Below are positions 20,194 through 24,240 of a stretch of DNA of 64,000 nucleotides, in pieces; the stretch's first letter is position 1; every line of letters starts with the position of its first letter. The notes under the pieces are model-generated. The model had not been told where the DNA came from and did no database searches. It worked only from the letters and a program-made list of their open reading frames with translations. Location of the stretch: positions 3,596,001 through 3,660,000 of the forward strand of contig NZ_JAHQRJ010000001.1 of NCBI RefSeq assembly GCF_019052805.1. The letters run 5' to 3'. This stretch comes from Noviherbaspirillum sp. L7-7A. GTDB lineage: Bacteria; Pseudomonadota; Gammaproteobacteria; Burkholderiales; Burkholderiaceae_D. A program made the translations under genes and the position numbers.

Positions 20194-21044
20194 GCGCCAG
20201 CCGCCGCCGGGGTTGGCGCCGCCACGCCGGGCGGCGTCTTGTAGCGGTTGTAGCTCCAGAAGTACTGGTCGGGACAGAGCGCGATCAGCTTTTCCATCGC
20301 GGCATTGATGCTGCGCGCCTGTTCCTCCGGCGTGCCCGCCAGGTCTTCGTCGAAGCGCACGAAGCGCAGTTCGAAGCCGCGGCCATGGTCCAGCCGCTCG
20401 GCATAGGCCAGGATGATGGGCGCGCCGCTCATCTGGCGCAGCTTGGCCGGCAGCGTCATGGTGTAGGCCGGCTTGCCGTAGAAGCCGGCCCAGGCGCCTT
20501 CGCCCTGCTGCGGGACCTGGTCGGGCAGCAGGCCGATCGCCTGGCCGCCCTTCAGCGCCTTCATCAGCATGCGCACGCCCGAGAGATTGGCCGGCGCCAG
20601 CCGCATGGACGGCCGCGCGCGGGCCTGCTCCAGCAGGGGTTTCAGGGCCGCCTTGCGCGGCGGCCGGTACAGCACCGTCAGCGGTATGTGCTCCGACACC
20701 GCCTGCGCCAGGATCTCGAAGCAGCCCAGGTGCGGCGTCAGGAAGATCAGGCCGCGCCCTTCGGCCAGCGCCGCGCGCGGCAGCGCCAGGCTCTCGATAT
20801 GGGCGACCGGCAGCACCCGGCGCGCCGGCGCCAGCCAGACGAAAGGCAGCTCCATCACGCTCTTGCCCGCCGCGGCAATGGCGCGCCGGCGCAGGTGGCC
20901 GTAGCCGGCGCGCGCCAGATTGTCGTTGAGGCGGCGGCGGTAGGAAGGCGAGGCGGCATACACCATCCAGCCCAGCGCCGCGCCCGACAGATGCAGCAGC
21001 GGCAGGGGCAGGTGCGACAGCAGACGAAATAAGTTGACAAGCAT
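20190..21044 (-). CDS. Lysophospholipid/lipid A acyltransferase (LpxL/HtrB family), first copy
   Basis: 284 residues, paralogous to the gene behind it. Membrane anchor at the N-terminus (FRLLSHLPLPLLHLSGAALG), the H-x4-E motif LTPHLGCFE near residue 110, the LPDQVPQQGEG substrate-site motif, and YFWSYNRYKTPPG near the end. Start ATG 21044 (MLVNLFRLL) is the family-like start; a frame extending to a TTG at 21080 lacks support. First gene of the minus-strand operon that continues through dapF, DUF484, xerC and the COG0523 gene; divergent from metK. Confidence 0.9.
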   Translation of the reverse strand: MLVNLFRLLSHLPLPLLHLSGAALGWMVYAASPSYRRRLNDNLARAGYGHLRRRAIAAAGKSVMELPFVWLAPARRVLPVAHIESLALPRAALAEGRGLIFLTPHLGCFEILAQAVSEHIPLTVLYRPPRKAALKPLLEQARARPSMRLAPANLSGVRMLMKALKGGQAIGLLPDQVPQQGEGAWAGFYGKPAYTMTLPAKLRQMSGAPIILAYAERLDHGRGFELRFVRFDEDLAGTPEEQARSINAAMEKLIALCPDQYFWSYNRYKTPPGVAAPTPAAAGA

Positions 21045-21063
21045 TAAAGAAGGCGTCAGGTTT

Positions 21064-21092
21064 TTGCGCGAATTTTTCAAGACGCGTAAAAT
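21064..21092 (+). promoter_or_regulatory. Sigma-70 promoter of metK
   Basis: TTGCGC (21064-21069), 17 bases, TAAAAT (21087-21092). Transcription would start near 21099, giving a leader of about 117 bases before the metK start. Confidence 0.65.
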
Positions 21093-21098
21093 AGCACG

Positions 21099-21215
21099 AA
21101 GTTTTATCCGCCGAGTTAACAGACAACTTGCGAGGCGGCCTACAAATCTCGCTAAAGCGTCGCAGGCTCATCGATAGGCCGCGACTTTACGACTATCACC
21201 ATTCAAGGAGCCTGC
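21099..21215 (+). promoter_or_regulatory. Structured metK leader, candidate riboswitch of unassigned class
   Basis: Four perfect or near-perfect helices can be read: GCGAG/CTCGC (21130-21134 with 21148-21152); its loop GCGGCCTA (21135-21142) with TAGGCCGC (21175-21182), a pseudoknot; GTCGC-A-GGC with GCC-GCGAC (21159-21167 with 21178-21185); and GCAGGCTC (21162-21169) with GAGCCTGC (21208-21215), which contains part of the Shine-Dalgarno and abuts the ATG. The last masks the ribosome site and excludes the third. This is the layout of a translational switch. I do not match it to a known SAM riboswitch sequence. Confidence 0.5.
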
Positions 21216-22370
21216 ATGGCACACGAATACCTCTTCACTTCCGAATCCGTCTCCGAAGGCCATCCCGACAAGGTGGCCGACCAGATTTCCGACGCCATCC
21301 TCGACGCCATCTTCGAGCAGGACCCGAAGGCCCGCGTGGCCGCCGAAACCCTGTGCAACACCGGCCTGGTTGTGCTGGCCGGCGAAATCACTACCCATGC
21401 CAACGTCGACTACATCGGCGTGGCGCGCGACACCATCAAGCGCATCGGCTACGACAATGCCGACTACGGCATCGACTACAAGAGCTGCGCGGTGATGGTC
21501 TGTTACGACAAGCAGTCGCCCGACATCGCCCAGGGCGTGGACCGCGCCGCCGACCTCGACCAGGGCGCCGGCGACCAGGGCCTGATGTTCGGCTACGCCT
21601 GCAATGAAACCCCGGAACTGATGCCGGCCGCGATCCACTATGCCCACCGCATCGTCGAGCGCCAGTCGCAGCTGCGTAAGGACGGCCGCCTGCCATGGCT
21701 GCGCCCGGACGCCAAGTCGCAGGTCACGCTGAAGTACGTGGATGGCCGCCCGGTCGGCATCGACACCATCGTGCTGTCGACCCAGCATGCGCCCGAGATG
21801 GAGCATAAGCAGATCGAGGAAGCGGTGATCGAGATGATCATCAAGCCGGTGGTGCCGGCGGAATGGCTCAACGGCACCCGCTACCTGGTCAACCCGACCG
21901 GCCGCTTCGTCATCGGCGGCCCGCAGGGCGACTGCGGTCTGACCGGCCGCAAGATCATCGTCGACACCTACGGCGGCGCAGCGCCCCACGGCGGCGGCGC
22001 CTTCTCCGGCAAGGACCCGTCCAAGGTCGACCGCTCGGCTGCCTATGCCGGCCGCTACGTGGCCAAGAACATCGTCGCCGCGGGCCTGGCCGAGCGCTGC
22101 CAGATCCAGATCTCCTACGCCATCGGCGTGGCAAGGCCGACCTCGGTGATGGTCACCACCTTCGGCACCGGCAAGATCAGCGATGAAAAAATCGCCGACC
22201 TGGTGCGCGAGCATTTCGACCTGCGCCCGCGCGGCATCGTGCAGATGCTGGACCTGCTGCGCCCGATCTACAGCAAGACCGCCGCCTACGGCCATTTCGG
22301 CCGCGAGGAACCGGAGTTTTCCTGGGAGCGCACCGACAAGGCGGAAGCCTTGCGCGCCAACGCCGGTTAA
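21216..22370 (+). CDS. metK: S-adenosylmethionine synthetase
   Basis: 384 residues, full length. Makes SAM from methionine and ATP. Motifs: [17 protein letters not shown] (residues about 13-29), the [15 protein letters not shown] loop, [19 protein letters not shown] (phosphate and K+/Mg2+ site). AAGGAG sits six bases before the ATG, but its 3' half lies in the anti-SD helix described for the leader. A peptidase gene starts two bases after the stop. It begins the methyl-cycle cluster completed by ahcY and metF downstream. Confidence 0.98.
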
Positions 22371-24154: not shown

Positions 24155-24240
24155 TTCGTCAAGGAGCGTTGCGACAGAACCCTGCACCAGCCCGTTCTGC
24201 CAGGCTTGGCGAATCAACAATGCAACCGCGCTCACGTGAC
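24155..24240 (+). promoter_or_regulatory. S-adenosylhomocysteine (SAH) riboswitch
   Basis: Matches the SAH riboswitch class by both sequence and structure: outer stem TTCGTCAAG with CTTGGCGAA (24155-24163, 24205-24213), the conserved GGAGCGTTGCGAC (24163-24175), the AATGCAACCGCGCTCACGT stretch near the 3' end, and the pairings GAGCG/CGCTC (24164-24168 with 24229-24233) and TTGC/GCAA (24169-24172 with 24222-24225). This class switches on SAH hydrolase genes when SAH accumulates, and the next gene is exactly that enzyme. Confidence 0.92.

Follow-up and report, generated by a model that had tools for sequence, protein, structure and literature searches.

The SAM-II riboswitch (RF00521) was first known mainly from alpha-proteobacteria and a few other bacteria including Bordetella bronchiseptica, and the SAM-II metA RNA gave a value of about 1 uM for SAM and showed no change at 1 mM SAH (PMC1273637, accessible sections). 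The fully conserved nucleotides of its pocket are U10-U12, U20, U21, G22, C23, G42, C43, U44, A45, A46 and A47; U11 and U21 recognise the charged sulfur, U44 bonds the adenine and A47 bonds the methionine end of SAM, according to the accessible text of PMC3764141. SAM-V (RF01826) has the same binding core, which superimposes on that of SAM-II, and is translational. The SAM-V U8, the equivalent of U10, hydrogen-bonds the U that pairs with the SAM adenine, and in at least 86% of SAM-V cases the short P2a helix includes the probable ribosome site (PMC6061858, in the part available). The available part of PMC9481103 counts 44 cases of SAM-II riboswitches in tandem. In some of them a terminator comes first and control of the ribosome site follows, apparently exerted by the second aptamer; the metK leader described here has a single aptamer.

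For methionine genes in beta-proteobacteria a separate pseudoknot leader, the metXZ element, has been proposed. It was described for metX and metZ with terminators, and the metK leader of the group discussed here is not among the cases in the accessible part of PMC4239095. In the same portion of that paper, a survey with Rfam profiles found SAM_alpha in Rhizobiales and Rhodobacterales only, and SAM/SAH, SAM-III and SAM-Chlorobi riboswitches are described as controlling metK. Suspected regulatory elements in the 5'UTRs of B. thailandensis metK, metX and metZ (Leyn et al., 2014) are reported as confirmed, from unpublished data, in a footnote within the accessible text of PMC8814607. Beyond this footnote, no description of the structure or class of a metK element was found in the literature covered, from which subscription papers were mostly absent.

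Pseudoknot fold of the metK leader

The window analysed is a stretch of 64,000 nucleotides from Noviherbaspirillum sp. L7-7A, and all the leader features given below lie on its forward strand. The open reading frame at 21216-22370 encodes 384 amino acids and is taken, from the protein sequence, to be metK (SAM synthetase); relatives have MetK proteins with 77-92% identity across 80 loci. The leader is bounded by the metK start at 21216 and, on its other side, by a divergent gene that looks by eye like a lipid A acyltransferase. A -10-like box, TAAAAT, at 21087-21092 would place the transcript start near 21099. A strict sigma-70 promoter scan of 20950-21300 gave no promoter; a -10-like hexamer is found within 30 nt 5' of the first helix, P1, in 64 of 74 leaders, with a shuffled expectation of 9.9. 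Transcription attenuation was set aside for the metK leader because the strict promoter/terminator scan gave no terminator-like site.

The fold energy of the whole leader is ordinary (z -0.64; 51 of 200 shuffles were equally good) and no better than that of shuffles, so folding of a single sequence cannot settle the structure. Comparison of the leaders reveals a P1/P2 pseudoknot that had not been drawn in the first-pass annotation. P1 is formed by CCGCC at 21108-21112 and GGCGG at 21134-21138, and P2 by 21122-21133 and 21149-21161, where the loop of the P1 hairpin pairs with the 3' tail. This is the H-type arrangement of SAM-II. Within P2, the GAC strand at 21122-21124 pairs with GUC at 21159-21161 (P2b), C21127 with G21157, UU at 21128-21129 with AA at 21154-21155, and GCGA at 21130-21133 with UCGC at 21149-21152 (P2a). 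In P2b, GAC goes with GUC and GAAC with GUUC. The coordinates were mapped onto SAM-II and SAM-V numbering by us. With this mapping the third strand, GAGUUA at 21113-21118, corresponds to G8 A9 G(10) U11 U12 A13, where position 10 is mostly G in metK loci. CUUGCGA at 21127-21133 corresponds to C19 U20 U21 G22 C23 plus two more bases; CUUGC is required by the pattern with which leaders were selected (matched by 73 of 80 metK loci), and the following two bases, which are unconstrained, covary with 21149-21150. The joining segment AAAU at 21144-21147 takes the place of the SAM-II A-minor strand, and its equivalent in the related locus L032 is in register with SAM_alpha. The P2a/P2 3' strand, UCGCUAAAG at 21149-21157, supplies G42 C43 U44 A45 A46 A47 G48. 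The GUC at 21159-21161 is both the P2b 3' strand and the 5' end of a second hairpin, and it changes in step with both partners.

All four complementarities in the first-pass annotation are found where it had placed them, and the hairpin, anti-SD and P1/P2 pairs were re-verified by script. Three of the four recur among relatives, the exception being its proposed pseudoknot. It had read GCGAG (21130-21134) and CTCGC (21148-21152) as a hairpin. The pairing is present in the sequence, where it makes up P2a of the SAM-II-type pseudoknot and one further base, and is not a separate hairpin.

Covariation among relatives, which had been suggested as a check on the structure, is seen for P1/P2 in two alignments and on a MetK tree. 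The first alignment (A1) holds 47 of 74 leaders, 27 being excluded as duplicates or for an insert of more than 13 bases before P2a. Its leaders were chosen by a strict pattern that demands core bases, including G at position 10, and leaves P1 and the outer P2a pairs free. The invariant core columns of its 47 rows are thus due to the pattern, and constant core pairs carry no weight. In A1 the pseudoknot pairs are paired in 97.0% of cells, compared with 37-40% when the partner is slid by 1-3 columns; 7 of 17 pairs are changed on both sides (shuffle mean 4.9, with 14 of 500 reaching 7) and the covariation score of 0.300 is above all 500 shuffles (mean 0.156). Further pair types number 13, fewer than the shuffle mean of 15.9. 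For the P1 helix of this alignment, 92.6% of cells are paired and four of six pairs are changed on both sides. The wider alignment (A2) was drawn from 37 chosen sources, of which 14 are shared with A1 and 23 are not, has 36 distinct rows and was fitted to P1 only. Its cells are paired in 93.7%, against 36-46% when slid, nine of 17 pairs have double changes (reached by 0 of 500 shuffles) and the covariation score is 0.217 vs 0.113. On the MetK tree (70 rows), supported independent pairs gave about 14 co-changes in the same way over six base pairs and none contrary (same way 5, 1, 2, 1.7, 3.2 and 1 per base pair; no difference 0, 0, 2, 0.3, 2.8 and 1). No single base pair reaches 0.05 on the tree.

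The metK leader is genuinely a structured RNA. It could instead be conserved as DNA, for a promoter or operator located between metK and the divergent lipid A acyltransferase-like gene, and the conserved block does lie shortly 3' of the -10-like box. The block, however, lies downstream of the inferred start, its base pairs covary, and its two halves stay together even though the insert between them reaches 96 bases (L079), so that we give conservation at the DNA level next to no chance of being the explanation. Inserts of up to 96 bases between P1 and P2a are found in L026, L034, L039, L051, L079 and others, and some are hairpin-like by eye.

Relationship to SAM-II

The SAM-II core is present in the window as GAGUUA, CUUGC, AAAU and GCUAAAG, and 12 of the 13 pocket nucleotides are kept (U11, U12, U20, U21, G22, C23, G42, C43, U44, A45, A46 and A47). 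A pattern demanding the 12 pocket bases is matched by 73 of the 80 metK loci. When the pocket is not demanded in selection, GCTAAAGCG is found exactly in 77 of the 80 metK loci that were chosen by protein. Judged by sequence, the metK leader represents a divergent aptamer of the SAM-II type and not a new class, and is a widespread variant that Rfam misses here. It resembles SAM-II in its H-type P1/P2 pseudoknot, its pocket nucleotides, its AAAU strand and its association with methionine/SAM genes. It differs in having G for U10 and GAGUUA where GAUUUG is found in the Rfam SAM-II loci of the order that were read, in its P2b (GAC/GUC or GAAC/GUUC), in its anti-SD/anti-anti-SD platform, and in the scores of the scanned metK-type loci, which stay below the Rfam cut-off.

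The one missing pocket nucleotide is U10, which is G at 21115 in the window. Of the 80 protein-chosen metK loci, 74 have G at position 10 and one (L063) has U; five were unread, of which L013 and L020 are without the element, L067 is cut and L035 and L074, misplaced in the count, have GAGTTA. A second set of 84 leaders has G in 79 and U in four, the ordinary SAM-II of L166 being unread. All 28 of the Rfam SAM-II loci of the order with printed sequences have GATTTG (GAUUUG). The metK leader of L063, which has U at position 10, carries GCCAAAG instead of GCUAAAG, a change that would turn the adenine-reading U44 into C.

In Rfam scans, RF00521 did not match the window leader even at E 10, and scans of the window at the gathering cut-off and of 20900-21400 at E up to 5 gave no relevant match. 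A scan with Rfam had also been suggested in the first-pass annotation, and that it gave no match at the leader is in the annotation's favour. The annotation had also reported no SAM-II signature. This part is not supported, for the core is present and RF00521 is found below threshold at the leader in two of 16 related metK loci, L032 (24.2 bits) and L024 (21.5 bits), where the cut-off is 36. In L032 the model aligns end to end (E 0.00084 in a 176-base search); in the other 14 loci SAM-II was not matched at E up to 10. The best metK-type leader, at 24.2 bits, is below the Rfam gathering score of 36 bits. Since neither U10 nor this score is found, the leader is a variant and not a plain member of SAM-II. 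A scan of 12 more loci at E up to 1 gave SAH as the sole SAM-related family. RF01826 (SAM-V) is absent from the Rfam scans of the window and of related metK loci, and SAM/SAH, SAM-III, SAM-VI and SAM-Chlorobi have no Rfam match in the window. The folds of these last four differ from that of the metK leader; SAM-VI is a further class that controls metK.

The relationship can also be approached from the other side. R1, a model built from metK leaders alone, finds RF00521 loci with per-genome E values of about 1e-6 to 1e-7, as expected from common descent, and where examples were compared (G239:C7:164074/164065 and G421:C24:13195/13184, among others) its matches share the register of the Rfam SAM-II loci. 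In L166, from another family of the order, metK follows an ordinary SAM-II that is over the Rfam cut-off (41.7 bits), and in L195, from another genome of the order, metK follows a weaker R1 match (38.1 bits).

What the change at position 10 does may be considered in two ways. The metK leaders may be a distinct SAM-II sub-class in which U10-to-G re-tunes the reading of the ligand, in affinity range or selectivity, a suggestion that we regard as tentative and rather doubtful. A SAM-II-like fold that serves another ligand or selectivity, such as SAH, or SAM bound with a very different affinity, is unlikely. This second proposal rests on U10, which contacts the adenine-reading U44, now being G in the 74 of 80 and 79 of 84 leaders given above, vs the uniform GATTTG of the Rfam SAM-II loci, and on the contact made by U8 in SAM-V (PMC6061858, in the part available). 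It is weakened by the retention of the sulfonium-facing U11 and U21 and of A47, by a G-U pair that could in our estimation replace U-U, by the metK leaders that retain U, by metK being a natural target of SAM feedback, and by the separate riboswitch that SAH has near ahcY. Control of metK translation by a protein or small RNA bound to the leader, with a SAM-II likeness that is only ancestral, is very unlikely. The P2b pair is indeed broken in a few leaders (one group, L218, L221 and L229), but the leader is most constant at its pocket positions, the homology is to a ligand-binding RNA, and the switch geometry requires no partner.

Distribution of the element

The leader DNA was matched in 180 of 195 family genomes, and a MetK match was found in all 30 family loci that were fetched, one of which is the window's own. 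The 80 loci used above are from named genomes and were chosen by the MetK protein alone; 46 of them also trained R1, which locates the element before metK in 78. Among the 78, L067 is cut by a contig end and L063 has GCCAAAG. In L025, L026, L034, L038 and L047 the model matches the first 34-36 positions only, and all five show GCTAAAGCG further on. L013 and L020 have no element before metK.

Across the order, 212 of 300 genomes were matched by R1 with an E limit of 0.01, ordinary SAM-II elements included. The best 30 of its loci contain 26 with metK, and 60 weaker places, chosen by us, contain 30 with a MetK match. In L213 and L214 this match is just 53% identical, and the sequence directly upstream is without the aptamer. 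By our tally the metK-linked form occurs in 12 family codes. Beyond the order, matches are fewer and mostly weak, with 81 of 229 genomes in the class and 15 of 249 in the phylum at E up to 0.001, counts that include genomes of the order and take metK-type and ordinary SAM-II together.

Among 30 R1 loci without metK, 17 cluster by their longest downstream open reading frame, which starts 191-576 bases past the match (L198, L202, L205, L206, L207, L215, L217, L219, L224, L225, L226, L231, L232, L241, L242, L247 and L256). The frame resembles a MATE transporter; one 60-amino-acid fragment matched Pfam MatE at E 1.9e-5, just under the cut-off. Those read by eye have a small open reading frame starting MYDC or MFDC between the aptamer and the MATE-like frame, and most of those read have tandem aptamers, the first of GAUUUGA type with a terminator-like end and the second before the small frame. 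Tandem aptamers were seen by eye among the R1 loci of the order. Strong R1 matches also lie before MoxR-type AAA ATPase-like genes in L139, L140, L142 and L188 (a fragment from L140 is AAA_5 at E 2.3e-7). Such genes are not known to us as methionine targets.

Expression platform

The first-pass annotation had noted that GCAGGCTC at 21162-21169 is complementary to GAGCCTGC at 21208-21215, and that GTCGC-A-GGC at 21159-21167 pairs with GCC-GCGAC ending at 21185. Both are present in the sequence, and together the anti-SD helix and the 21159-21185 hairpin are the expression platform. The 21208-21215 segment overlaps part of AAGGAG (21205-21210) and abuts the ATG at 21216. The switch hairpin, an anti-anti-SD, pairs 21159-21163 and 21165-21167 with 21178-21185 (-11.6 kcal/mol). 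The anti-SD, GCAGGCUC at 21162-21169, pairs with GAGCCUGC at 21208-21215, within a ribosome site region that spans 21205-21215 (helix -13.8 kcal/mol). In isolation the two energies are therefore similar. The position of the ribosome site sets the leader apart from SAM-V. AAGGAG begins 43 bases past P2b and is reached via a separate anti-SD, and it does not lie in the 3' short helix of the aptamer.

The anti-SD pairing of the window was equalled by 0 of 200 shuffles, and that of the 21159-21185 hairpin by 3.5% of 200. The anti-SD helix also recurs in relatives. The platform was compared in 153 distinct leaders out of 167, a set in which at least one leader (L166) is an ordinary SAM-II. The mean energy of the own anti-SD/SD duplex is -14.89 kcal/mol vs -11.14 for permuted partners (sd 0.23; minimum of 5000, -11.92), a difference that is inflated by relatedness among the leaders. 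On average 23.8% of the ribosome sites of other leaders pair better than the own site; for 30 of the 153 leaders the own site ranks among the best 5%. The anti-SD reaches a shuffle p of 0.05 or better in 89 of 153 leaders and the switch hairpin in 77 (30 of 53 of the window type, 36 of 56 of the GUUC type and 11 of the remaining 44). The anti-SD/SD solutions vary by group: GCAGGCUC/GAGCCUGC in the window, GCAAGC/GCUUGC in L010, AAAGCUCC/GGAGCUUU in L019 and GCCUGCUCC/GGAGCAGGC in L239.

The GUC at 21159-21161 is used by two mutually exclusive partners, P2b and the foot of the switch hairpin. In leaders of the GUC type the loop strand pairs at 3/3 positions in 92 of 92, and in the GUUC type at 4/4 in 52 of 56, whereas pairing with the wrong partner is found in 14 of 92 and 6 of 56, respectively; five further leaders have neither form. 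The far strand of the hairpin follows the same division: RRCGC occurs in 55 of 56 leaders of the GUUC type vs 18 of 92 of the GUC type, and for GCGRY the counts are seven of 56 and 57 of 92, respectively. The 5' strand of the hairpin shares GUC with P2b and much of its remainder with the anti-SD, and this gives two self-consistent states.

The metK leader is probably a translational OFF riboswitch with a SAM-II-type aptamer, in which the SAM-bound pseudoknot leads to a freed anti-SD that masks the ribosome site; we put the probability of this reading at roughly 0.85. SAM as the ligand, the direction of switching and the effect on translation are inferred from SAM-II biology and from the geometry. 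At low SAM, the hairpin at 21159-21185 would close and sequester the anti-SD at 21162-21169, AAGGAG would be accessible and MetK would be made. When SAM is abundant it would bind the H-type pseudoknot (P1 and P2), P2b would capture the GUC at 21159-21161, and the hairpin would lose its foot. The released anti-SD would then pair with 21208-21215, so that the ribosome site is hidden and MetK synthesis stops. The first-pass annotation had proposed a methyl-cycle-responsive translational switch before metK, which is probable, and a class that could not be named, which the presence of the SAM-II core contradicts.

That annotation had also paired GCGGCCTA (21135-21142) with TAGGCCGC (21175-21182) as the pseudoknot of an unassigned SAM switch. 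The two are an exact 8-base complement in the window, and the anti-SD helix, the 21159-21185 hairpin and this pseudoknot cannot, as it had stated, all be present at once. The outer half of the pairing scores 2.11 of 4 with its own partner vs 1.89 when swapped, above any of 2000 swaps, which relatedness could cause. All eight pairs are found in only two of 53 leaders of the window type, so the pairing is not conserved and was rejected, and its strands are needed for P1 and the switch hairpin. A switch built on this pseudoknot is extremely improbable, and the SAM-II-type OFF switch is the reading kept here.

Other putative switches of the methyl cycle

The first-pass annotation had placed an SAH riboswitch near ahcY. 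RF01057 was found at 24155-24240 (59.3 bits), its sole match in the window, with none at the metK leader. It precedes ahcY, and a metF-like gene lies further downstream, the genes being named by eye. In this genome metK would thus be under a SAM-type switch and ahcY under an SAH switch.

In the same genome a metX-like query located metX at G000:C1:3150606 (minus strand), and its leader contains GCGCCGAUUUGA...CAGCUUGCGGGCGC...AUAAAUACGGCUAAAGCG followed by a terminator-like GGGCUUUUUU. Read by eye, this leader (G000:C1, about 3151050-3151250; L115 and L257) is SAM-II-like, with U10 and long loop insertions. It was not reported in an Rfam scan at E up to 5. The sequences suggest that the metXZ element of beta-proteobacteria may be SAM-II itself.

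Implications

If the doubtful proposal of a U10-to-G sub-class is true, SAM synthesis would have its own set point, separate from that of the U10 SAM-II-like metX switch in the same cell. The systematic U10-to-G change beside a U10 SAM-II-like metX leader in the same genome makes the role of this pocket base testable. The GUC/GUUC segment, which covaries with two competing partners, is a clean natural record of the two states of a riboswitch. With the switch proposed here, metK of a large bacterial order gains a concrete feedback mechanism that goes unrecognised in the Rfam scans of this analysis, and the element may account for the absence of a riboswitch there from a survey made with Rfam profiles.
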